Made by a program: the position numbers and the translations under genes. A DNA stretch of 64,000 nucleotides from Lepraria neglecta (taxonomy: Eukaryota > Ascomycota > Lecanoromycetes > Lecanorales > Stereocaulaceae). Numbering within the stretch: the first letter of the stretch is position 1; each line of letters opens with the position of its first letter. The notes below the pieces were generated by a model. The model worked only from the letters and a program-made list of their open reading frames with translations. It searched no databases and was not told the DNA's origin. Of the stretch, positions 22,733 to 61,678 are shown piece by piece. The stretch covers positions 3,782,001 through 3,846,000 of the forward strand of contig CM065652.1 in NCBI GenBank assembly GCA_033220425.1, in the 5' to 3' direction.

Positions 22733-25700
22733 TCACTCCCAATACGGCGGTGGAGGCTCTGACACAGACGTCGTGCGAAGTGGCATTTTCGATTGAGGAG
22801 CTGTCCGCAGCTCACAAAATTCCATATGCTTATCCCGCAGCCTCTTCATATACGGATGAGCATGCCCACCAAGCGCAGCCAACCCATCTATTGCCTGACC
22901 GCACATATCAATAGCCTCACCGAGCCTACCCTGCAGCTGATAGCACGTCGAAAGAAAATCCAACGCTTTCACTCGATCAGGATGCTCGCCCTTATTAGCG
23001 ACGCTCATGTTTCGATGTCCTTCGGCGACTTCGAGGAGTATTTCTTCCGCATCGGCAAGACGTTCTTGCTTGATGAGAATATCGCCTAAGTATAATTTTC
23101 CGAAGAGTGTGCCGATGTGTGTAGGGCCCAGGTTCCGCTCTGCTATCTTCAGCCCGGCAAGCATGTCTGATTCTGCTTCGGCTATGTATCCCTGGGTACA
23201 TTTGACGCGAGCGAGGTTGGCGGCGGCCCAGAGTGTGTAGGGGTGTTCCTTTCCCAGTTTAATTTCGCGGGATTTGATGACTTCGAGTAGAAGTTGGTGA
23301 GCTTGCTGTAGTTCCGATTCGGAACTGTGTGCATCTCCTCCATATTCCATATATGTCATCGCCAGGTTGTTCACGGCGGTCAAGGTCTCAAGATGGGTGG
23401 GGCCAAGCTTGCTGTTCATTCGCATTCCGGCGGCGGCTTTGCTGTGGAGTTCTCTTGCCTTTTCTGTACGCCAGTAACTTGCATGGGCGCGACCTAGGTT
23501 GTCCATGGCTTTCAAAGTGTCCTCGTGATCTGGTCCGAGGACCTCTGTCATGCCCTTCAGGGCTCGCTCGTGGAGCTTTTCGGAGTCAGTGTATCGTCCT
23601 TGTTGCCAACGACTCTCGCCCAAAACGTCCATCACTTTCAATGTATCTGGATGATCATCGCCTAACGAAGCAGTATAGGCTTGTAGGACCTGGTTCTGTA
23701 GCTCCGCTGCTTCATTTCCCTGGCCTAATTGCCAATTGGTACCAGACAGTGCCAGCTTGATCCTCATTGTTGAGGGGTGCTCGTCTCCAAGCATTTTTGA
23801 GCAAAACTCCTTGACGGTGAGCTGAAGTACCTTTGCCTCATCCCATCGGCCGCCTTGAGCGTATACACGGCTAAACCTTGCCAATTGTATTACCTGCGTT
23901 CTGGTCATTGTCGGTTTGCTTAGAAGCAGGGTTGTTTTACGGGACTTCTGCGCCTCGTTGATTCTTTGACCAATCTCCCTCTGACGCTCGCGAACATGGT
24001 CTATGTGGGGGAGAAGCTCGTGGCGAAGTCGTTCATCGGCCTCTCCACTGGCGAGTGGTGGTAGTAGGATACACTGTGCTAACGCCGTTATTGCAGCTTG
24101 ACACCATACTGCTTGCTCTGTCGCAGAAAACTCAGGCCTTTCCCTTGCCCATGTGTGAACTACTGGGTGCATAGAGTAACTGTCATTGACTTCGTTGTAG
24201 GTAATGAGAGACAGTTGAGTAAGCTCATTCAAAGCTGCTCGCAGTCGGAAATCCCCAAGTCGTTCGAATTCGCTACTGTCGCGAAGGAGATGTGGTAATA
24301 CAGGTGGTGACCTATCTTTGTAAATAAGCATAGCCACTTCAAGAGCCATGTCCCTGAAAATGGTTGTCCAGGATCTAGTCTTGGCGGTTGTTGAAATTGC
24401 TTTCTGCTTGGCTTGCTCTTTCTCCTGTTCTTCTCGTTCAAACTTTGGATTTGTTGCAGCTTTGATCAAGAAATCCATCCGGATGTTCTCGCGGTGGAAG
24501 AACGAAAACATCTGTAGCAGCTGTATCGCATCTTGAGCTTCTGTCGTGCCCTTGCTTTGGAGGCCTCGGAAATTTATCTCGAAGCTTGAGTATACATTCA
24601 TGTATATATTATCGCCTTTTTGAAAGCCATGGAAGTCGCAAGCACGGCGAACATTATCCTTTTCTCTCTGGTAGTATTGGAGGTAATTTTCCAGCGTGCA
24701 CAGTCTTTTCATGATGGCTTTGCCAGCATGTAGAAGTGCGAGGGGTAAGGAGCCCAATACCTTGGTGATGGAAGCTGCGAATCCCTGACTAGATGTGTCT
24801 CCTGGTACCGGCTTGGAGGCTGCTTTGAGGAGAAGCGTTTTGGCATCATCATCTTCCAAGCCCTCGAAATGGAGATACTGGGGTCCAACAGTACCAAGGG
24901 TTTTGTTGGACGGAATGCGCGTGGTAATAAGGATGTGACCTCTCTCCCCATCAGGAATATAATCATCCAATTGTATCTCAAAGTTGTCTGCATTGTCGAT
25001 TATAAGAAGCCATTGAGTCTTCAGATTGGATAGCCAGTACTTTGCTGCACGAACGTTGTCGCCGACTCCACCAACTTTAGCAATGTCTTGGTATGTCTGT
25101 TTAGCTAGCTCATCAGAGCTTGCGTTGATCCAAAAGATCCCCCAATAGCTATAGAACTTCTTAGTTCTTCCCGGTGGAATGACAGACTGAGCGTGGAGTG
25201 TACTGAAGGGACTCTAAGGTACTGACCTGTGCCGATAGCGTTGAGCATATTCGCAGCAAAATTGCGTTTTGCCCGACCCACCCAACCCATAGATGACGAT
25301 ACGTTTCTGGAACCGGCCTAGAGCTGGTTCGGGGGTACTAGCCGCGAAAGCGTTCTTGACCTCAGCTAATACATTCGATCTTCCAGTGTATAATTTCTCA
25401 GCCCCGTGTGGAACGGAGAAGTGCTCGTTGACAGATGCTAGTGATACCACTGTTTCGGCAGAGCCAAGGGAATCGTGCAGCTATGCGGAGTCAGAAATGA
25501 TGCCGCACGAAGGATATGTTGTTCGCTTACGCTTTTAGCATCTTGCGATGTGATTGTGGACTGTAAAGAGACCAAAGAGCTTTTGATCTCTTGCAAAGAC
25601 TTGCCTGTTATAAACTTGAACTCCCCAAGGGATTCTGTTGCCACAGAATGGGTTTGCCGAGCATGAGTTCTGGCATTGGTTAGTGTGGCAGGGAAATAGA

Positions 25701-33760: not shown

Positions 33761-35681
33761 TCACCGGCGACGCTTTTTGGAGGATGCTATTGGACGCGTG
33801 TTGCACGTAGCCGCCGCTTGATAGCACTGATCAAGTTCACAAATGACGTCTTTATAGAAAGCCTTTTGCAGGTCTATATTATCGAGCTCCGGCTGATCCA
33901 AGTCCATGTCAAAGTCACATAACAGACACCGCTGCACTACCATTTCATACCTAAGACTTTCCACTCTATTTACAGCTTCAGAGAGCCGAAGTGCAGTCCT
34001 AAAATTGGCATCCAAATCTGACCCTGGGAATGCCGAGGGCCGAGACGCTTGAGATATAGAGTCCTCGGGCATTTGGAGCTCGCTAATTGGACGCCCAAAC
34101 GCAAGCTCAACCAAGATGATGCCAACGCTGGCAAGCAATGCGTTGGGGGCAAGCGCTGGGTTAAGACCCCCGCCAAGCGGTGGTTGACTGTGCTTACTGG
34201 GCTTTAGAAGAATTCCACTGAAGTACGGTGCCCGGAGTCTGTCCCTATTAAGATCTTGTATACCAAAGAACACAATATCAGAACTCTGTAAATATCGGGG
34301 GAGCCATGGCGAGGGGTGAAATTGTAACACTGCCATCGAAAGAACTTTAGCCAAGTATAATCGGTCTACACGCGGGAGGCCACCTGGCAGTGTCTTTACA
34401 TCACGTAATGCTTTTGCGAGTGAGATCGAAGTGTGAAGGTGGGTATGCTTCCGATTGGAGAAGAGGAAGTGCTTGTATGTAGGCGATCCAATACCAAGAC
34501 AAGGAGGCTCATAGTCGGAGTCGATCCGCCGTTTCCGCTTTAGCCCCTGCTGTTTTTTGATATCAGCGCACACATTCCGTGTCGAAAATAGATCTTTCGG
34601 ATCCCTTGCTGAGGAGACGGAGCTGTTTGAGGAGGGAGCAATGCGAGGCGTAGGTGCTGCTCCCGGAGAAGAAGGTTTCCTTTTGGAGGGTCTCAGTACA
34701 GTGAGAAGCCTTCGAGCGGAGGTGTTAGGCTCCTTGTTGACATCGTGAGCAGAGCCGCCTTCCATTGCCGGGAACGACTCCACTGCCAATGGAATTGGCC
34801 CTTCCGAGGCCGTAACAGCGTCACTAGGCAACGAGCACGACCACGTAATATCAAAGCCAATCTTCCCAGGTGTAGGTGTTGTTGGACCTTCTGAAACGTT
34901 ACTCTCAAGGGAGATGTTGACTGTATGTTCTGCTGGGCATGAGGACAAATCCGATAGTGTCTCATGTAGGTTCTTCGACGCCTCTTGTATCTCTCCGTAA
35001 TATATGACCTCTATTGGCCTGTCTGCTATGGGCGGTGTTTTTGCTCTTTTCAGGGCTTCGATCTGTCTTGATAGTACCACTAGATCGCCATTGCCTTCGC
35101 GTAACCGTTTCATTGTGTCATCAATGTCGGGTTTCGAAAAGCTGATCTTGGTTCTTTGCCTTAGGTGTGGTAGGACATTTGTTGCTTTTTCGTCCTAGAA
35201 AAATCAAGTCTTAGCATTCATGCCTCTCCGTTCGATCCCAGCGCTTTGGATATCACCCAAAACCTAATTCGCGGAAAGGACTTGCCTGACTCTGATCCAG
35301 TAATATGTGCAAGCGTCCATAGTTCTTGACAATGTGTGACAATGTCCGCTCCACAAGAATCACAGCTGCGATACAGCCTTCGAAAGCATCTCCCAAACGA
35401 GCGTGTAGTTGCTCGCCGAAGTCCTGGTCTTGCCATAGAGGGTGTTGGTAGTTGTGAAACATCTGACGGACTTCATTCTGGTGTTCCGCCACCGAACGTA
35501 GCAGAATTTGGCATTCGTTGGCAAAGACTTCCTTCTGCACTCGGAGAGCTAGTTGAAAGTTATCAGCTTCTTTTGTGTAATCTTTGCTGAAGATTCGAAG
35601 TGGCCGAAGAATTCTCTCGTAGTTCTCGAGAGCAGAGAGGATCAGGGGAGTGACACCTAAAGCTAATCCAGCGACTTCCAT
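33761..35681 (-). CDS. HeLo-like / DUF7580-like protein
   Basis: Two exons (35681-35286 and 35194-33761) give 609 aa. The N-terminus (MEVAGLALGVTPLILSALENYERILRP) is the typical start of fungal proteins carrying the DUF7580 domain. It continues with HEP-like helices through LSHIVKNYGRLHILLDQSQ. The middle is disordered, Ser/Pro-rich and basic (RPSKRKPSSPG). The C-terminal domain has the expected LAKVLSMAVLQFHPSPWLPRYL, SSDIVFF, ASVGIILVELAFGRPI and a DLQKAFYKDVICELDQC ending. The only intron (35285-35195) has a GC donor, GCAAGT, with a TAG acceptor; both sides are in phase 0. DUF7580 proteins are kinase-like remnants associated with HeLo-type domains, with no proven function. Its start lies 224 bp from that of the divergent gene at 35906. 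Confidence 0.85.
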
Positions 35682-38140: not shown

Positions 38141-38311
38141 CTACCTGCCAGCCGGATCCTCCACAAACGCTGAAATCAGAATATGCAGCGCTAAAACGTC
38201 CCCAAGATCCACCGCCTCCCAAACATCCTTCTGACGAATCCACCGCGCGAACTCCATAGAAAGAACCCATTTTCGTCTAGTCCCTCTTGAGCCCGACCCA
38301 CGCGTATACTC
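38141..38311 (-). repeat. Extra C-terminal coding cassette A of the HExxH family
   Basis: On the minus strand this 171-bp open segment encodes a diverged copy of the family's C-terminus: EYTRGSGSRGTRRKW, SMEFARWIRQKDVWEAVD, ALHILISAF, ending in TAG at 38143-38141. It aligns to cassettes at 38530-38365 and 38755-38561 in the same order and frame. Confidence 0.7.
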
Positions 38312-38364
38312 TTTCATCCTCTCACTAGCCTTTCAAGAACTCCAGCTGCCGGCCAGCTACTCTC

Positions 38365-38530
38365 TCTAATTAAGGAGCTCCACAAAAGCTTGTACCGGAA
38401 TGTGAAGCGCTTCCATGTCTTGAGAATCCACCGCAACCCAGAATCCCTGCTGATGAAGCCTCCGCACGAACTCCATAGAAACAACCCATTTTCTTCTAGT
38501 CTCCCTCGAGCCCAACCCACCCGCATACTC
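38365..38530 (-). repeat. Extra C-terminal coding cassette B of the HExxH family
   Basis: Minus strand, 166 bp, encoding EYAGGLGSRETRRKW, SMEFVRRLHQQGFWVAVD, DMEALHIPVQAFVELLN, then TAG. It lies between cassette A and the C-terminus of the broken paralogue, which reads RRLHQQEFWDAVD, VRALHIPKSAFQEFLN at the same place. The units are spaced about 220 bp apart, so this is a tandem duplication of the gene's 3' end. Confidence 0.75.
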
Positions 38531-38560
38531 TTTCCTCCTCTTACTGCTCTTCCAAGAACT

Positions 38561-39673
38561 TTAACTGCCAGCCGGGCCCACTCTTGGATTGAGAAACTCC
38601 TGAAATGCTGACTTGGGAATATGCAATGCTCTAACATCCTGAGGATCCACCGCATCCCAAAATTCCTGCTGATGAAGACGCCGCAGGAATGTCATCGGCA
38701 CCACCCATTGTCTTCTAGTCGTCATAGAGTACGAGCCACGCGTGTACTCGTACTCCGAAAGGAAGCTAGGCCATTCCTGCACGCAGGACGGCATATCCAC
38801 TTCTCCGAAATTCCAGTCGACGTAGCCGCCGAACACGTGGCTTTCCCAACTGCGGCCCAGCTCAGCAATGTCCTCGTCTTCGATGTAAGGCTCCCGAGAC
38901 GTCATCTTGAGCATGTGTAGGACTTGCTCTGCCGTGTAACCGTTCATTACCATCGTTGCCAGAGTGAGGGCCCTGTTGTTCACCGCGTAGTCCAGTGCGT
39001 AGGTGAGTTCACGCATAAGGGTTTTCGCCATTTGAAACCGGACTTTAAGGATCTCGTTGCTGTTGTTTTCAGCTCAAGCGTGTAAGTCTCGCAGAGTTGT
39101 TAAAAACTTGATACTTATATGGATGCGGGATGGAGCGCCACGATAGCGGTTGTTCTCCATGATGTTGATCGGACTCAATTCTTGATAGTTCATGTCCGTT
39201 ACACCCCATAAGTCTTCCATAATCCGAGCGTCTGCATCGGTAAACGACCATTTGAGAGTCAGCGCAAGGCGTTCCAGTGCAGCGTTGACTCTTCTCGCTG
39301 TTTCTGCGTGGCCATTAGAATACGTCTTTGCAAACCTCGTTGAGGAGTCAGGGTGTGAACTTGGCTCCTCGAATTCCCCGCGAGGACTGTACAGGATGTT
39401 GTAGAAATATTCAAAGCTGGGTGGGCTCATCGCTATTTTCGTTGCCAACTGGAAAACAGAGTATAGGAAGTACAGGAATTGGTCCTTTGGCTGACCCGCC
39501 GGGAACGTCCACGAGGTCTTTTGGAGGCCTGGGACCTCGAACTCGAAAATTGTGTGGATTGCATTTGTTAGGGTCCCCTCGGTCGGCGCTACTTCGTCCT
39601 GATCCAGGTACCCAAGCTAATCCTATTGTGCTTGGCTGATGCTACTAAAACTGCGTCTGGTATCAGGATCCAT
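38561..39673 (-). pseudogene. HExxH-family paralogue 3, broken by in-frame stops
   Basis: One frame runs from ATG 39673 (MDPDTRRSFSSISQAQ) to 38561 with three in-frame stops and no frame change. Two TAGs lie just before LGYLDQDE, and a TGA at 39076-39074 lies after LTTLRDLHA. The sequence aligns with the intact neighbours: SPPSFEYFYNILYSPRG, NAALERLALTLKWSF, DIAELGRSWESHVFGG, CVQEWPSFLSEYEY, HQQEFWDAVDPQDVRALHIP. Where the intact paralogue has HEIAH, this copy reads RELTY, so the putative metal site is lost as well. The first TAG aligns with Trp in the paralogues, and the TGA could come from CGA, consistent with transition mutation. It was a full-length member of the tandem family before decay. 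Confidence 0.75.
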
Positions 39674-40232
39674 TTTGGCTGTGAAGATTGAAGAAAGAGA
39701 AGCGTACCGGTCTATATATATATATTGAAGTGGCTGGGTTTGAACGCCAGTGCGGGGTCATGTTTGGAGTTGAATTATATCAAATGTTAACGGGACGGCA
39801 CTGAATGCGGTAAAGTCTTCCTGTGTAAGCATGTCTCATTGGAGGCTTTCTGTTAACCTTGAAACATCATCTGACTGAGAAAGTGTTCTTGTTGATGAAT
39901 ATTCGGGGGCCGCTCCCCTATCATTTCCATAGTGTTGAGTCGGTAGTGAGCCGAGGCGTATTGATCTCGAGACAAAGAAAGTCGTCATTGGGGTGGACAT
40001 GGTGTTACAAAATGTATGGCAACACCCCGCCACAGCCTAGAAGTTGAATTACTTGCAGATTAGAGGCGGTTAATAAGTGTTCGTAGTCTATAGAATTATG
40101 CGTTGATGTCCGGAATCTCGACAATTCCTCAGCACCCGAGAAGCTGTAACTTTTAGGATTTTCTGGATCCTCGCAGATGTTTCCTTCGAAGTAGTGCTTG
40201 CCCTGACCGTCCGGCTCTGTGTCTGCGGATAC
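39674..40232. other. Spacer between HExxH-family paralogues
   Basis: No gene seen in 559 bp. It includes a short TATATATATAT run near 39716, likely upstream of the broken paralogue. Confidence 0.5.
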
Positions 40233-41495
40233 TCAGGGATTCAAGCCCACGCAGCTGTGCTGGTCGAACAGCCTTTCAAGCGTTTCCCTTGGCCTTTCAT
40301 TTGCCAACGCAGCAATCTCATCTTCATCCCCATCGTTCCTTAGCACGCGTGATGAATCTTCGCTTTCGGTTGGCCACGTCCCCTCACTGGACGTACCCGG
40401 ATCCCAGTTGCGGTCAAAATTGTTGCCCTGGTATTCGCGTCTAAGTCCAACGAACTTCCGTATCCGCAGCGTGTGATGGCTAGGAGCTCGACCTCTGACC
40501 GCATCCCAATATTCTTGTGATTGGATGTTTCGAATGTAGTAGAGCGAGATCAGATACGTGGTTGAAAGTCTTGCTGGAAGCGTACGTTCCGGGTTCATTT
40601 CGGCATTGCGTGCAAGGAACGAAGGCCATTCGTAGACAAAGAGAGGGCTGTTGAGGCTCTCCCTGCTGGACATGATGACACCTCCGAATACCTCATTCTC
40701 CCAGCATAATCCAAGTTCGGCCACGCGCTGGTCTTCGACGAATGGTTCTGTGAAGAGGATGCTTGCTCGTTGATCGGGATAGGCTGCGTTCCGCCTGTTC
40801 AGAAAGTCCAGGTCAACGGCAAGATGCATGGCATGTGCAATCTCATGACATAGTGTAACGGCCAGCTGGAAGTTGAGGCTAAGAAGCTGATTCTCGTTCC
40901 TGTCTGGCTGTTCGTATAAACGTCTGAAATCGTTCAAGTAGTAGACACTGATTGCGACAAAACTCGCGCATCCGGTGAGCTGGTTATCCTCTTGAACACT
41001 GATACCAAGTGGATAGGCAAGGAAGTCGGGACCTGTCGAGCCGAGCGAGCCTCCGTGGCCTGAGAGATCTCCAAAGGCAAAGCTGATGGACTCAGCTAAT
41101 CTGTTCAGTGCTCGAGCGATCGTGATTATAGCCGATACTGGGGTCGCTTGTAGACTGATTTCGGGGACGGCCAGATCCTTATAGCGTATTAATGTCGGAC
41201 TTCGAGGGCTGTACAAGATTGAGTAGAGTAGACGTATGCTTGCAGGGCTCCAAATCATTTGAGTTGCGAGACGAAGTGGAGGAGTCAGGTACTCATAGTC
41301 TTGCTGGGTTAGAGTGAGCCATCTTCTTGTACTGGTGGAACCCGGCAGAGGTCGGTCTCTGTTATAGCCGAATATGGGATGGACTGCACCCGTGAGAGGG
41401 GAATGTGTTATTGAGTCATTGGACTCTAGATAGCCATGGCTTTCCCAGTCGCTCAGAGCAAGCAATGGGAAATCTTGTCGACAACTGTCATCCAT
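40233..41495 (-). CDS. Putative HExxH metallopeptidase-like protein (paralogue 2)
   Basis: Single-exon 420-aa protein starting MDDSCRQDFPLLALSDWESH. It carries CHEIAHAMH, with HEIAH at residues 217-221, the zinc-binding and catalytic motif of zincin-type peptidases. A conserved AELGLCWENEVFGG follows at about 259-272; its Glu could be the third metal ligand, as in gluzincins, 39 residues after the second His. There is no signal peptide, so the protein should be cytosolic. Other blocks shared with both neighbours are LRLATQMIWSPAS, LYSILYSPR, ALNRLAESISF, FVYEWPSFL and the C-terminal QSQEYWDAV. The family has no name I recognise. Only this copy of three retains the motif. Peptidase activity is inferred from the motif alone. 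Confidence 0.75.
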   Translation of the reverse strand: MDDSCRQDFPLLALSDWESHGYLESNDSITHSPLTGAVHPIFGYNRDRPLPGSTSTRRWLTLTQQDYEYLTPPLRLATQMIWSPASIRLLYSILYSPRSPTLIRYKDLAVPEISLQATPVSAIITIARALNRLAESISFAFGDLSGHGGSLGSTGPDFLAYPLGISVQEDNQLTGCASFVAISVYYLNDFRRLYEQPDRNENQLLSLNFQLAVTLCHEIAHAMHLAVDLDFLNRRNAAYPDQRASILFTEPFVEDQRVAELGLCWENEVFGGVIMSSRESLNSPLFVYEWPSFLARNAEMNPERTLPARLSTTYLISLYYIRNIQSQEYWDAVRGRAPSHHTLRIRKFVGLRREYQGNNFDRNWDPGTSSEGTWPTESEDSSRVLRNDGDEDEIAALANERPRETLERLFDQHSCVGLNP

Positions 41496-41849
41496 AGTTA
41501 GGTATAGTTGAAGAAGATGTATGTATTCCGGGGTTTAACATACCGGGCCCCTAACACTTGAAGACAATAAGGATGTGGCGAACAGGGTTTTATTCATCCA
41601 GGGGTAAAACGCTAGCATGCACTAGGCCTCAGGTTTCAGTACATGCAGATTAGGATGCAGACGAGATTAGAGATCATACCCATGCGCTGTTCATCTTTTA
41701 AAGAGTTTATATATGTATAAGTCCCGTTACAAGTCCATGTTTGAGTACAGATCGACGTTATCCGGTCCTGCCTAGGAAGATCTCGATTAAAATTCCAGGT
41801 CGCATGTTCGTGGAGTGTTGTTTCTGAAGGTATGCTCGAGTCTGGTTAT
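41496..41849. other. Spacer between HExxH-family paralogues
   Basis: A 354-bp stretch with no gene seen. It carries the upstream region of paralogue 2. Confidence 0.5.
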
Positions 41850-43244
41850 TTAGAACGTAGCAGCTGAGTCTCCATCCTTTCGAACCTTCTGCAACCTCTT
41901 CCTCGCGTTCACAGCTTCTGAGTTGATTTGATTCACAATGTGAAGTTTTCCAGCACGTATGGACTTTCGATTTTCAAAAACTCTTTGAGTCCGTTCGGCC
42001 AATGTCTCATTAGCACTTGAAGCCGAAGGATCTCCACCTCTATCTCCAGCAACTCGGAACGAGTCAGGCCCATCGCTGGGTCCTTCGCCTTCACCCGAGC
42101 CATTGGCAAAGCCTGACGCATCGCTCTCTGCGTCTGGATTGGTGACAAGAATGCCGACAATTTCCTTGATATGTAGTGCCGTGGCATCATCCGCTTTCAT
42201 GTTATCCCAGAAGTCCTGCCGGTGAATGTTGCGGAGGTAGTGCAGTGGCACCACATATTGGGTCGCAGTCTCCTTGTACTTTGCTCGTCGCGGGTAGTCG
42301 CCATCGGTAAGAAATGAAGGCCATCCGCTGAAGAAGAGAGGGTGGTCGACTTGATTCGCCCACTGGATGCTTCCGCCAAGGACTGCATTCTCCCAGCAGT
42401 AGCCCAATTCTGCAACACTATCATTTTCTAGAAATGGTTCGTTGCTCCCCACGCGCTCTCCAGTCCGTTGTGTTTTCTCAAGCTCCGCAAGATCGTGAAT
42501 TGTGGACTCCATGATTGCGTCAAGGAGCAAAGCGAGATCAGTCGCGTGCCCAACTGCATGGGCTATGTTGTGGCAGATGCTGACTGCGAGTTTAAATTGC
42601 AGGGTGAGAATCTGCGAAGTCTTGTCGCTGCCGCTCTTGAGAAGCATAGTGAGCTTAGAAAGGTGATTACGATTGATGTGGATCAAAGAGGCAATACCTC
42701 GCGGAGTGCCCGAATCGTCAGCGATGTTGATTCCATAGGGGTGAAGGGCCAGTGAGTGCGCCACGATGTTATCGCAGTTCTCTTTGCCATCCTCTTTCGG
42801 ATTCTCTACTAGAAAGCTCAAGGATTCGGCAAGACGGTTGAGCGCTTTCCTGGCCATGTTGCGTCGTGTCTCGTTCGATTCAGTTCGCTCAATTTCAAAG
42901 ACTGGCTGCCCTTCATAGTCCATATGTATGGGAGGAAAACGGCGTGGGCTGTAGATGATCTTGTAAAGAAGATCTAAGCTTGCCGGACTTTCGAGCATTG
43001 CGGAAGCCAGACGGAGTACTGGATCCAGTTCGAACCCCAGCTTTTCATATTGGCTTCCTGAGTATTGCGTCCATATCACATGTTCTACAATTGGTGTTGA
43101 GTGATGTTTGTGATGGGAAATTGGAAGCTTAGCGAGATTCAAGTCGAGTTCGTACTGGTCGGAGCTCGGGTGGTCGAGATAGCCAAGGTTCGCCCAGTCA
43201 TCCTGCAAGAACGTTGAGTATTTGTCCCTCGTGCGAGCATCCAT
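41850..43244 (-). CDS. HExxH-family paralogue 1, catalytic Glu replaced
   Basis: Single exon of 464 aa from ATG 43244 (MDARTRDKYSTFLQDDWANL); an in-frame ATG three codons upstream exists, but this start aligns with the starts of both paralogues. All family blocks are present (LRLASAMLESPASLDLLYKI, ALNRLAESLSF, EPFLENDSVAELGYCWENAV, LFFSGWPSFL, IHRQDFWDNM). The metal motif reads CHNIAHAVGH: both His remain but the catalytic Glu is Asn, so peptidase activity is not expected, while metal binding might persist. A longer charged C-terminal tail (SGFANGSGEGEGPSDGPDSF) distinguishes it. The frame is clean, so selection may have kept it as a non-catalytic protein; that is inference. Confidence 0.75.
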   Translation of the reverse strand: MDARTRDKYSTFLQDDWANLGYLDHPSSDQYELDLNLAKLPISHHKHHSTPIVEHVIWTQYSGSQYEKLGFELDPVLRLASAMLESPASLDLLYKIIYSPRRFPPIHMDYEGQPVFEIERTESNETRRNMARKALNRLAESLSFLVENPKEDGKENCDNIVAHSLALHPYGINIADDSGTPRGIASLIHINRNHLSKLTMLLKSGSDKTSQILTLQFKLAVSICHNIAHAVGHATDLALLLDAIMESTIHDLAELEKTQRTGERVGSNEPFLENDSVAELGYCWENAVLGGSIQWANQVDHPLFFSGWPSFLTDGDYPRRAKYKETATQYVVPLHYLRNIHRQDFWDNMKADDATALHIKEIVGILVTNPDAESDASGFANGSGEGEGPSDGPDSFRVAGDRGGDPSASSANETLAERTQRVFENRKSIRAGKLHIVNQINSEAVNARKRLQKVRKDGDSAATF

Positions 43245-44405
43245 CGCGAACACGTGGTGAGAAGATGTTTGCTGTTCTGTCTCAAGCTACAAGTACCGTC
43301 ATTTGATCTTTTGAGGTTCGGGACAGTCTTGTTCCAAGGCCGAATCTGGAACATTCCGGAGGACGGATTCAGCGTAGTTGGTTGAATCAGATTGATTCAG
43401 TGCCAGGAGACAAAGAATTTATAACTCCCAAAACGGCGCGAGTTTTGAGGATTCATAATTGCAAGGTCAGTGAACTGATCCGTGAAATGGAATAATTTGT
43501 CACTAAAGAAGAGGCCTGGTGTGATCAGGTAGCTTTGAGACAATTCACTTCCACGTGTTTCCAGGCCACAAAGAATTGCACGTCGGTGAATTGAGGATAG
43601 AGAAGTGAGGAGACGCTCCATATTAATTCTATTCACTGTAGGAGTGAACAAAACCTTATGTTTACTGTATCTTCCCTTTCCGCCTTGGAGATACATCCAT
43701 GACGACCTCCAACAGAGCAATGCATATCCAGAGAAGATGCCTAACTAGGTAGGCTCCTGATCCCAAATCACTTACATTTGCTCTTGGTCTGGCAAATGGC
43801 ACAAGACTGCCGTGAAACGAGCTTAGGTCAGCTTCACGTTTGCAAGGCGGCTTGCTGCAATCAGCACCCGCTGGATGACGAGCAATCCTAGTGTCTACTA
43901 ATATTCGCCATTCTTCCAGACTTAGGCACTCGCCCTCCCACAAAGGCTACCGCCGCATGACATCTTTCGCTTCGTTTCAAACAAAGCGGGTAGGAGCACT
44001 CATTTTGCTTCTTGCAATCGTGTCTTGGCACCAGGTCCATCCTTTCAGGTCCGGAATACTAATAATGTGACTCTCAGATAGTTAGGAGAGTTTTCAAAGA
44101 CAATATGACACTCATCAGTCTCCTTCAGGAAGCACAAACCAGTTGAGATGGAAACAGAACGAGCAATGAGCGCCTGGTCGATACCGCTAATGCGCGCCAA
44201 GACCTCTAGCTTCTCCCCTCTTTCGTAACCTCGAGACCTTCTCCAGCTTTGCCAGCACCAGTGTCGCTAGGAAGTTCTTGTGCCAACGCCCTGAGATGCA
44301 GGTACTAGGCGACATGGACCATGTCCTGTTCCAAGTATTGTACTGCCACCTGCTCAAACGTGGTCTGCTCCCGAAGGATGCGGACCGCCTCGATCCTTCA
44401 GCCGG
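43245..44405. other. Intergenic, with a coding-like stretch next to the transposon
   Basis: Mostly featureless. From about 44192 to 44405 the plus strand keeps an open frame without a start (LFRNLETFSSFASTSVARKF, then VLGDMDHVLFQVLYCHLLKR) that ends exactly at the transposon insertion point. This may be part of an older gene cut by the element. It is too short to identify. Confidence 0.35.
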
Positions 44406-44591: not shown

Positions 44592-45681
44592 TTGCCCGCG
44601 CTGTCGCTGCCTACCACCCTCGCCGCCGCCAAAATGCCACCCCCACTAGGCTCTCAGACACGTTTCGATATCGAGCACTATCTCGACCGCGGTGATACAG
44701 TCAAAGATATAGTAGACCGTACTGGTGTGACTCAACAGCAGATCTCCAAGATGAAGCGGAACCTGGAGGCGTGGGGGACGGTCGTTGCCCCATATATGGT
44801 GCAGGGCCGTCCCCGCCTTCTCACTGAAGTAATGGAGAAAGCCCTGACTGATTGGCTGGATGAAAAGCCACTGTCTTATCTCTTTGAAATGGTATATTTT
44901 CTATACGATATGTATAGTCTGACGCTCGGCGAGTCTACTATTCATGACACCCTGCGGCGATGTAATTGGTCACATAAAAAAGTAAGCCTCGCCTCCCATT
45001 AATATAAGGTATAGCCTGACTTACTTATTAACGTCTGGACAGGCTTCCCACCGAGCTTCTCAGCGAGACCAGCGCGAGCGCGATGAATGGAAAGCAAAGC
45101 TATGTAGCTGGACCGCAAATCAGCTGATATTTCTGGATGAGACCGCGTCCCATGAGCGTACCGCTGATAGGAAGTTTGGCTGGTCTCGTCTTGGTGCAGA
45201 GGTAGGGGTAAATACGCTATTCAAAAGATCAAAGAGGTGGTCAGTTCTTCCTGCATATACGGTGGATGGATATATTGCCTGGACCACTATCCATGGTTCT
45301 CTCACCGAGACTTTATTCAATGATTTTGTACGCAATAAGGTTCTCCCACAGTGTACCCCTGCAGCACTAGGAGGGCCTCGTTCAGTGCTTATCCTTGACA
45401 ATGCATCTATCCACCACTCGCAGGAATTAGTGGATATGTGCGAGGCTGCAGGCGTTACATTAGCTTATCTTCCACCGTACTCACCAGACTATAACCCCAT
45501 TGAGACCTCATTTGCTATCCTTAAGGGGTGGCTTAAAAGGAATGGTTATCTTATTGACGTATATGGTCCTGAGCCGGCAGACTTTGAGAGATTTTTGAAT
45601 GATGCGGTAAGGGCGCAGGGCGACCTTGCTGACCATGGGGCACTATTTCGAGCAGCGGGCATATATTATGAAGGGCGGTAA
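44592..45681 (+). CDS. DDE (DD34E) transposase, Tc1/mariner superfamily
   Basis: Two exons (44592-44981 and 45043-45681) with a 61-bp intron give 342 aa, or 328 aa from the second Met at 44634, which may be the true start. The N-terminal part holds a helix-turn-helix (DIVDRTGVTQQQISKMKRNL) for binding the terminal repeats. The catalytic triad is visible: D162 in LIFLDET, D249 in LILDNASIHHS and E284 in YSPDYNPIETSF. The second Asp and the Glu are separated by 34 residues, the DD34E spacing of Tc1-type enzymes. The enzyme cuts at the element's ends and joins them to a TA target in the nucleus. All catalytic residues and the frame are intact, so the protein is probably active. Confidence 0.93.
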
Positions 45682-58291: not shown

Positions 58292-61200
58292 ATGGCTTCC
58301 AAATATTCTTCCAACAAAGGCAGCAATGGCTCCTCACCTTCCAGTTCAAAGCCCTCCAGCACCTCTCCCAACGGATCTAGCAAAGTTATTCCCCGTACTC
58401 CTACCGGCCCTTCATCCAAGGTCCCTGGCAAAACTACTACGTCTTCGACTTCGTCGCCTTCTGGAACTTCCTCAAAGGGATCTGATAAAGCTAATCCAAC
58501 TTGCAAACCGACTACCGCGGAAGCTTCTACCAAGGGACCAAGTAGTAAACCAACTCCGTCCCAAAACCCAGCGCTTTCTGGAACTTCTCCCAAAAATTCC
58601 GGTCGAGTTGTCCCGGCTCCCATCCAAGCAAATCCAGCACCGTCTTCCAGCGAAATGAGCAGAACCACTTCTACGTCACCCACCCTAGTGAACTCCGGAC
58701 CTCCCTCTGGAAAATCCAGCGATGGCACACCCAAGAGTTTCGACTCCACGAACGAGCAACATCTGGCTCTGCGTCCATCATATGGAACCAAAGGCACATC
58801 CACAAAGGTTCTCATGAATTATGTCAAGCTCAAGTCCACCATCAATCAGTCGATTTTCATGTACAGCTTTGACTTCACGAATGGTCCAAATGCTGCCAAG
58901 TCGGACAAGGTTCGCCGCCTCGTTGAACTTTCCTGGAGGAGCTGGCTCTCAAAGGCATTGGGCCCATTGCTACCGACTTCAAGAAATCCTTCATGACTGC
59001 GAGAACACTGCCATTCGATAAGGACTTCCAGAAGTTGGATGGAGTGAAGATTGGTCCCGTATACTTCTACAAGGATTCCGACCCCAAGCCAGATAAGACT
59101 ACGAAAGATGAAAGATACGATGTTGACATCAAATTACAAACGCAAGATTTCCGTCTCGGAGCTGTCCCGATATCTTTCGTCAATTCATGGTAGGACTGAA
59201 CCGAAAATGGACAAAGCTTCGCCGACACAAGCTCTCGCCATTTTCACGGGCCTGAGATTCAGCAACCCGCGGCCTAGTATCTTTGCCTTTGCAAATCGTA
59301 CCGACTTTAGTGACTGGGTTGCTGGACCTTATAAGAATCCTTGTTTGGGGTTGGATCCCAAAGGCTTTTACCCCAGTGTACGAACTTCGACGTTGCAGAT
59401 GCTTGTGGACAGTCAGCACGCTGCATCGGCGTTCTACTATCCGGCAGGATCGCTCTCGAAATTGATAGATACGTACGAGAAGTGCTTCAACTTGCAAAGC
59501 TTTCTCTCTGGGCTGAGAGTTTCGTACAGCTATCTCAAGGATAAAGTTACCAAGAAACCGGTCACGAAGTTCAGAAAGGTCAGAGGTATTGCGCCAGGTC
59601 GGCTGAATAGTGAAAAGGTCACTTTCGATATCGATGGGAGGGAGGTCACGGTGGCAGAGCACTTCAAGAGTAAGTCCAATCTGTTCCTAGTCTGTCATTC
59701 CCTACTAATCGACGTTTCAGACCGGGAGATTATCCTCAAAGCACCCAGACTGCAGTTGTTGATCTTGGTCTCAGAGATGAACCCTGCTGGGTTCCACCCG
59801 AGCTGTGCACCGTGCTGCCAAATCAGATGTACGGGCGAAAGCTATCCGGCGATCTGAAGCGCGAGATGGTTAACTTCGCGGCGGGAAATCTGGAGCTGAA
59901 TGATTCAAACGAAATTGCGAAGGCGCTGGATAAGTTGGGCTTATCACGAAAGAATAGCACTTTGGTGAGAGATCTGCCGCCTCTCCTTTTCGTGCAGCTG
60001 ACGTTCTTGAAGGCATCTTTTGGACTGAAGACTAATCCAGGTGGATTGGCAACTAACCCAAATATGCTCACGGTGAATGGGCGTGCGATCGCCGCCCCAA
60101 GATTGGCCTATGCCGAGAACCGGTCAGCAACACCCAACAACGGGGAATGGAGTCTGCTGGGTAAGCAGTTCGAAGACGCGAAGCAAATGCCTCGATGGGC
60201 AATCCTGAGGGCTGGGGTGTCCGAATCCTACGAACCTCCTGTGGCCGAGCTCACACAGTGTTTTCAAGAATGCGGGTTAGATGTGAAGGACCAGCCTGCT
60301 CTAAAGAAATACCATGTCGACCCAAGGAACGAAAAGGTCCTCGAACAGGAGTTGCAATCCATTTCTAAAAGAGAGATAAGCCTCCTGTGGGTTATCTTGC
60401 CCACAGCAAAACGCCGAAGTATACGCTCGTATCAAATCTTTGGCAGACAAGAAAAGTAAGTATCGTGGATCTCTAGTGGATATAATGCTGCTGACTCCTT
60501 CCTAGGCATTCACACAATCTGCTCTGTTGAGAAGAACTTGGAGGAAGTCAAGAAGAACACCGATGAGAAGAAAAAGACGACACTGAAGTTGAGCCAATTC
60601 TGCGCAAACCTTGCCGTGAAAGTCAATCTCAAGTCTGGTGGAGCCAATTGGACGTTGGTGGAGAAGCCCAAACACCTGGGCGGAAAGACCATTGTGGTGG
60701 GCATCGACGTGGCTCATCCGCCTAAGGGGTGTGTTGAGACTGCACCGAGTGTGGCCGCTGTCGTTGCCAGTATCGATGATAAATTCGCACAGTGGCCCGC
60801 CAGCATTCGAACGCAGGCCGCTGCTGGTAAGAAGACAACGGCCTATGATAAGAAGATGCGGGCTTTCGAGAGAAAGAAACAAATCGCAGCCAAGGGCACC
60901 GACTCTCTTTGCAAAGAGTGCCAGGGACCCGAGAAAGGCCCCGGAAAAGTCCCACAGCCCCCAAACAATGATACAGTAGACGACCTTCAAAACATGATCT
61001 TTGAGTGCCTTGAGCTGTGGAAGACCCACAACAAAAACGAGCTTCCTACGAAGGTCCTCATCTATCGCAGCGGCTTACCTTCGGCACACTACACAATAAT
61101 CCCAGGGAAAGAGCTTGGTCTCATCAAGAGCGCATGTAAGGCCATGTATGAGCGCGAGCACCGACCGCAGCCAAAGATCTCCTACATCGTCAACGGCCAC

Positions 61201-61678
61201 CACACCCGCTTCTATCAAACCCAGGACGGAGGCATGAACAACGATTACCATAAGCTGGGCACGGTTGTCGATCGTACTGTGACCTTGGAACGCAGGTGGG
61301 ACTTCTTCCTCGCTGCGCAAGGTGGCAATTTGGGCACTGCTAAGCCGGCTCATTATGCTGTCGTCCAGGACGGGATCAGCATTGGCATTGATGGGAATGA
61401 GGAAATCCTAAGTCTCCATCAGATTCGACGGGCAAAGTGCCAAAACTGGCTTCGGTACTGACTTGTGTGTGACACAGACTCATAATTTCAGCTATCTCGT
61501 TCCACGATCTACCAGGTCTGTGTCGCTCTGTGCGCCGGCATACTATGCCGACCTTGCCTGCACCCGTGTAAAATGTCACCTCTATGAGGCTTGCCATCCC
61601 ACCTCCACCACGCAAACCCGTCAACAATGGAGGATCAACGTGCATGAAGGTCTCAAGAATACTATGTTCTACATCTGA
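58292..61678 (+). pseudogene. Argonaute (PAZ-PIWI) gene with several frame breaks
   Basis: The start MASKYSSNKGSNGSSPSSSK opens a 170-residue Ser/Thr/Pro/Gly-rich tail, followed by Argonaute N-domain sequence. The frame then changes near 58932 and again near 59150. Linker and PAZ-region sequence follow (TQALAIFTGL, YPSVRTSTLQMLVD, RKVRGIAPGRLNSEKVTFDI). An intron at about 59671-59720 joins imperfectly to GDYPQSTQTAVVDLGL. The MID region has VILPTAK, a frame change near 60415, AEVYARIKSLADKK, and an intron ending at 60506. PIWI starts GGKTIVVGIDVAHPP. The slicer tetrad is altered: Asp is kept in GIDVAHPP, but YRDG reads YRSG at about 61063-61074; His in PAHY is kept. The C-terminal block (TRSVSLCAPAYYADLACTRV) follows near 61517. 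Intact Argonautes bind small RNAs in gene silencing. Four or so breaks suggest a dying gene, barring sequence error. Confidence 0.75.

Follow-up and report, generated by a model that had tools for sequence, protein, structure and literature searches.

On the minus strand of a 64,000-nucleotide stretch of the Lepraria neglecta genome (hereafter the window; contig CM065652.1, C7:3782001-3846000 of a 42.0-Mb, 11-contig genome), three paralogous genes lie in tandem between 38141 and 43244, and only one of them carries an intact HExxH motif. This arrangement raises the question of what the genes encode and what has become of the copies in which the motif is altered. The original prediction, made from the DNA letters, held that they form a metallopeptidase-like family in which one copy stays catalytic, one has become a pseudoenzyme, and one has died. 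Our analysis of the three genes, designated c1, c2, and c3, leads us to regard them, with reasonable though limited confidence, as part of a fungal family that is unnamed and fast-evolving, consists of probably intracellular, soluble proteins with a zincin-like HExxH core, and is undergoing birth and death.

Three tandem paralogues differ at the HExxH site

Judged from sequence comparison, the homology of the three copies is far above chance. In a search of the organism's own 42.0-Mb genome, c2 matched c1 with an E value of 3.0e-50 (35% identity) and c3 with an E value of 5.6e-34 (30% identity), and all of the matches run in one reading direction. Before the motif site, the copies have in common an MD...R start, a GYL block, LRLA (FQLA in c3), and SP.S....Y.I.YSPR; from the motif on, they share the HExxH site, EP(F/Y).E....AELG..WE..V.GG, WPSFL, and a block resembling LRNIHRQDFWD. 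The shared start and block order proposed earlier thus hold for all three genes, whereas the proposed common C-terminus holds for c1 and c2 only, as c3 lacks their tail.

The middle gene, c2 (40233..41495, minus strand), is an intact open reading frame of 420 residues. As predicted, it reads CHEIAHAMH, followed by EPFVEDQRVAELGLCWENEVFGG, with HEIAH at residues 217-221 (40833..40847) and the block ELGLCWE running from Glu260 to Glu266 (40698..40718), both in conserved columns on the same strand. The number of HExxH motifs expected by chance in a protein of this length and composition is 0.016. The first gene, c1 (41850..43244, minus strand), is likewise intact, with 464 residues counted from an ATG at 43244 (the open reading frame is listed from a GTG at 43253). 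Its site reads CHNIAHAVGH, again in agreement with the prediction; HNIAH lies at 42558..42572 (minus strand), with Asn at the general-base position and with both histidines and the ELG..WE block present. Since a sequence scan of c1 and c2 revealed no signal-peptide core, hydrophobic N-terminus, or membrane stretch, we take both proteins to be intracellular. In the tandem, therefore, the motif states are HNIAH, HEIAH, and, in c3, RELTY.

Further members occur on other contigs

At least three further members, L010 (C2), L013 (C5), and L016 (C6), lie on other contigs. Like the tandem genes, they contain an F..A..L(H)E..(H) block and an LG..WE...FGG block, the second of which is partly eroded in L010 and in L016. 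L010 reads LVHEVAHAVY..EPYVNTQFVSELGRAWELWTFG, with HEVAH intact and an EP..SELGRAWELWTFG block present. Directly after WELWTFG, its frame changes (positions 1690-1860), the Q..EFWD block goes on in another frame, and the stretch preceding this block is missing, so that L010 may itself be defective. L013 reads LVHEL^AHSIEG..SELGRAWEETMFGG, in which HEL is followed by a 59-bp GT-AG intron and then by AHSIEG. L016 reads LVRELVWHVF..DALNSAWEIFMFGG in a clean frame of 532 codons, with RELVW at the motif site. An insert with the internal repeat GPEPP(D/E)RSKV(Q/R)YQ stands between the motif site and the WE block of L016 (1250-1470, minus strand).

These members were linked to the tandem by a profile combining c1 and c2 with the pieces of c3, which gave 36.2 bits for L013, 33.9 for L010, and 15.2 for L016, with the best of 15,000 shuffles at 7.8 bits. 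With a profile of c1 and c2 only, L013 (29.6 bits) and L010 (27.2 bits) still led. Six members are a lower bound, since a consensus query missed L013 and L016. A scan of the genome for WExxxFGG gave 20 matches versus 24 for the backward control, that is, no excess. Four of the 20 were known members (c2, c3, L013, and L016), and at 15 of the other 16 no HExxH was present within 600 nt upstream in three frames; the remaining one, L036, has a single HENGH upstream, amid stops in the frame viewed. Two weak matches were dropped, L009 with four stops and L011 with a long frame in which no family motif was seen.

Loss of the motif recurs within the family

Among the six members found, HExxH is intact in three (c2, L010, and L013) and gone in c1, c3, and L016, in three different ways. 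The prediction of one intact motif in three copies is thus correct for the tandem and incomplete for the family, because L016 has lost it elsewhere in the genome. In a FastTree tree of one block with six rows, c1 and c2 are joined (0.93) with c3 next, and the window copies are split from L010, L013, and L016 (0.73). Given this topology, the three losses are most simply independent, and since L016 lies on another contig in a clean frame, motif loss is recurrent in the family.

The position of Glu218 (c2 numbering throughout) is that of the base in peptidases. Across the family, 67 columns show agreement of at least four of the six members, and Leu205, Phe209, Ala212, Leu261, Trp265, Glu266, and Gly271 are among the columns common to all six. 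Glu218 and Glu260 are each kept in five of six members, and His217 and His221 each in four. Glu260 is replaced only in L016 (by Ala), which also lacks both histidines, and a joint loss of His217, His221, and Glu260 is expected if all three bind one metal. The conserved columns therefore point to Glu260 as a candidate third zinc ligand, in which case c1 keeps all three candidate ligands and lacks the base. A glutamate as third ligand is the defining feature of the Glu-zincins, as given in the excerpted part of PMC3890501.

c1 looks retained and c3 is broken

Over 322 columns aligned in the three copies, unique residues were counted at 32 for c1, 42 for c2, and 54 for c3; binomial comparisons gave p 0.30 for c1 versus c2, 0.02 for c1 versus c3, and 0.26 for c2 versus c3. 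In the tree of one block, the c1 branch is also shorter than that of c2 (0.47 versus 1.31). Neither the counts nor the branch lengths suggest that constraint on c1 has been relaxed relative to c2, and since c1 does not appear to be evolving faster than c2, it looks retained. Under the criterion that a pseudopeptidase is an intact gene with a catalytic residue replaced, c1 has an open frame of 464 codons and a change from Glu to Asn, in a family whose peptidase nature is itself putative.

By homology and translation, c3 (38561..39673, minus strand) is a broken paralogue. Its motif site (38999..39013) reads MRELTYALDY; it retains the motif Glu and, downstream, the Glu block, but neither histidine. 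Read from the ATG at 39673, the gene is interrupted by three in-frame stops (TAG at 39623-39625, TAG at 39617-39619, and TGA at 39074-39076), as had been predicted, and two open stretches of 180 and 170 codons remain. The frame closes at a TAA at 38561-38563, within a tandem array (38179..38720, minus strand) identified with Tandem Repeats Finder and a repeat search. The array consists of about 2.5 copies of a 219-bp unit (73 codons) that derives from the last, C-terminal block of c3, stands in place of the c1/c2 tail, and carries decayed copies of the c3 LRRLHQQEFWDAV..ALHI block; its units are 70-76% alike, differing by 24 to 30%. When the array was overlapped with itself at a shift of 219 over 372 nt without gaps, mismatches at the three codon positions numbered 35, 29, and 38 (each out of 124), and this even spread is as expected without coding constraint in the array. 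At position 38141, from which the locus was originally said to extend, there is only a stop in this frame, shortly beyond the final unit; c3 itself ends at 38561. Repeat-induced point mutation was considered as the agent that inactivated c3 and rejected, as no signature was found (TA/AT 0.73 versus 0.71 for the window).

Relation to named families

That the family is unnamed, as stated in the original prediction, agrees with our searches, in which no Pfam family exceeded its cut-off for the members tested and no NCBIfam family did so for c1 and c2. The profile search proposed at that time found DUF4344 (PF14247), a putative metallopeptidase, to be nearest, with an E value of 0.14 for c2 and 12.4 bits against a curated cut-off of 29.6; this Pfam match occurs in one of seven alignment rows, and the other six rows have none. 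We take a GREEDAAD-like block about 11 residues past HExxH to be the DUF4344 motif. Bacterial genomes were scanned with this motif, and among the 80 of 119 stretches that were viewed, HExxH stood just upstream in 77; DUF4344 exceeded its Pfam cut-off in all 10 loci tested. A profile of 76 sequences was then compared with the fungal family by hhalign, alongside profiles of Peptidase_M78 (PF06114; 15 sequences) and Peptidase_M48 (PF01435; 30 sequences). DUF4344 gave 55.5%, on the HExxH helix only; its reversed profile gave 0.6%, and none of 12 column shuffles exceeded 0.2%. Pairs among the three bacterial families gave 17.7, 75.3, and 94.9% on the same scale. A search for DUF4344 by family in the organism's own genome returned no match, nor did any of 14 controls match.

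The likeness to DUF4344 consists of an HExxH helix with similar neighbours (L..HE..HA....L) and an acidic block downstream, whereas its GREEDAAD is replaced here by EP........ELG..WE...FGG, with less of this block present in L013 and L016. With Peptidase_M48 and Peptidase_M78, the likeness is the HExxH helix. From these comparisons, the HExxH helix is zincin-like in sequence, and membership in any named family is not established. A below-cut-off PKS_DE match (E 0.014) to one piece of c3 and sequence matches in the PDB (E 0.47 to 1.1) were taken as chance.

Weighing the explanations

In the mechanism that we favour, c2 would use His217, His221, and Glu260 to bind zinc and Glu218 as the general base in hydrolysing a peptide or protein. 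With three ligands and no base, c1 may bind zinc or substrate without cutting, and would then be a pseudopeptidase acting as a partner, decoy, or sequestering copy, while c3, without either histidine, would be a pseudogene. The motif would most simply have been lost three times among six members, with some of the motif-less copies kept. The original division into one catalytic, one pseudoenzyme, and one dead copy is thus borne out in several parts: an HNxxH copy whose frame is clean and which shows no accelerated evolution, a broken copy, and HExxH in two distant paralogues beyond the tandem. Catalysis by c2 and a peptidase fold are still putative. A bolder version, which strikes us as distinctly unlikely, would make this a new fungal zincin-like family, located among other fast-changing genes, whose recurrent loss of the active site is selected, active and dead copies being kept as pairs of enzyme and regulator or decoy, with c1 holding the zinc or substrate that c2 cuts.

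Several results weigh against a zincin-like family as proposed here. The DUF4344 match in hhalign spans only 24 columns around HExxH and stops short of the Glu block, and Peptidase_M78 (11.3% over 12 columns; reversed, 0.8%) and Peptidase_M48 (2.2% over 17 columns; reversed, 1.4%) came lower. Two structure models, a check suggested with the original prediction, reached predicted local distance difference test values of 35.1 and 40.9, too poor to judge the fold. Third codon positions among c1, c2, and c3 are saturated (29 to 31% identical), and therefore no ratio of nonsynonymous to synonymous rates can be drawn from these copies. c3 lacks both histidines yet keeps Glu260, so that the histidines can be lost without Glu260, which is therefore only a candidate for the third ligand. 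Single-sequence links to L010, L013, and L016 are weak (E 0.052, 0.018, and 0.125), and L016 (3.8 bits, rank 17) no longer stands out from the shuffles when the profile is made from c1 and c2 only. Finally, no relatives were confirmed among 53 genome-contig and 100 viral-contig candidate stretches; these collections are without fungi, so that the lack of relatives does not confine the family to this species.

The most serious alternatives, each of which we consider rather unlikely, concern the chemistry of the family and the fate of c1. The core may be zincin-like without being a peptidase, the HExxH metal being structural or serving other chemistry, such that its loss is cheap in several copies. 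This would fit the absence of the motif from three of six members even though the F..A and WE...(F/L)G blocks on either side of it persist, and HExxH enzymes with oxidative chemistry exist (in the excerpted part of PMC12636437), but Glu218 is kept in five of six members, including two without the histidines, and the closest profile is that of a putative metallopeptidase. Alternatively, c1 may be no retained pseudoenzyme but a copy heading for loss with its frame not yet broken. Copies do decay here, as the broken neighbour c3 and the frame change after the WE block of L010 indicate; against such a fate for c1 stand its 464 open codons, its conserved blocks, and its count of unique residues relative to c2.

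For c3, it is very unlikely, in our judgement, that the stops are assembly errors or intronic and that the gene is a live RExxY pseudoenzyme. Although its two stretches remain open, and L016 is an example of an RExx variant that has survived with its frame clean, the three stops are separate, no plausible GT-AG intron is seen by eye around them, the c1/c2 tail has given way to a decayed repeat array, and c3 exceeds both c1 and c2 in unique residues (versus c2, only p 0.26). Least probable of all is that the HExxH of c2 arose by chance in an unrelated fold. The lack of a confident fold and the weakness of the database matches would allow it, but the motifs of c2, L010, and L013 fall in one alignment column, with a chance number of 0.016 to 0.037 per protein. 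Our preferred explanation remains the family in birth and death with a zincin-like core.

Other genes in the window

Just beyond the start of c1, two frames at 44592-45681 (plus strand), one with DDE_3 (E 8.6e-21) and one with helix-turn-helix matches that are weak and below cut-off, appear Tc1/mariner-like by reading. An NLR-like protein (by reading) with a TPR tail is encoded at 22733-24970 (minus strand; TPR_12, E 4.6e-40). A DUF7580 gene lies at 33761-35681 (minus strand; E 1.6e-14), where a distinct frame on the upstream side (35253-35681) resembles the N-terminal exon of the gene. An Argonaute-like gene occupies 59051-61461 (plus strand), with Piwi at E 1.5e-42 and ArgoMid at E 3.2e-5, below its cut-off. 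It has RSG (LIYRSGLPSAHY) in place of RDG, which we take to be the PIWI motif expected there, so that a catalytic Asp seems replaced; judged from its sequence, the gene may either encode an Argonaute that does not slice or be in decay. Together with an intron-bearing gene, the transposase, NLR-like, and Argonaute-like genes suggest that the window comes from a filamentous fungus. PADLOC found nothing, and Rfam found nothing on the window.

Comparison with known systems

No publication describing this family was found among the titles and abstract openings considered, which is no proof of absence. If our interpretation is right, it adds a protein family not recognised here by Pfam or NCBIfam, together with a series of HExxH, HNxxH, RExxY, and RExxW sites in one genome that would be useful for the study of zincin-like proteins after catalysis is lost. 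The pattern is ordinary in kind, that of a birth-and-death family with pseudoenzymes; what is new is a family unnamed in the libraries searched.

In the excerpted part of a survey of HExxH domains (PMC3650047), approximately half of the domains have occasionally broken motifs, and the first His is replaced by Arg at about double the frequency expected from an average protein. The surveyed families (CLCA and others) resemble the one described here in that intact and substituted sites stand side by side and in the His-to-Arg change, seen in c3 and L016, whereas that part of the survey does not name the Glu-to-Asn change of c1 as a frequent one. CLCA itself had no match in the Pfam scan, the sole comparison made here. 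Pseudopeptidases described in the excerpted part of PMC11266112 include FtsHi4 (REAAV), ADAM7 (HQLGH), and alpha-MPP, which aids an active partner. The FtsHi, ADAM, and alpha-MPP examples belong to defined, characterised families, whereas the fungal family is known here from genes alone; in both, paralogues without the base or the ligands occur.

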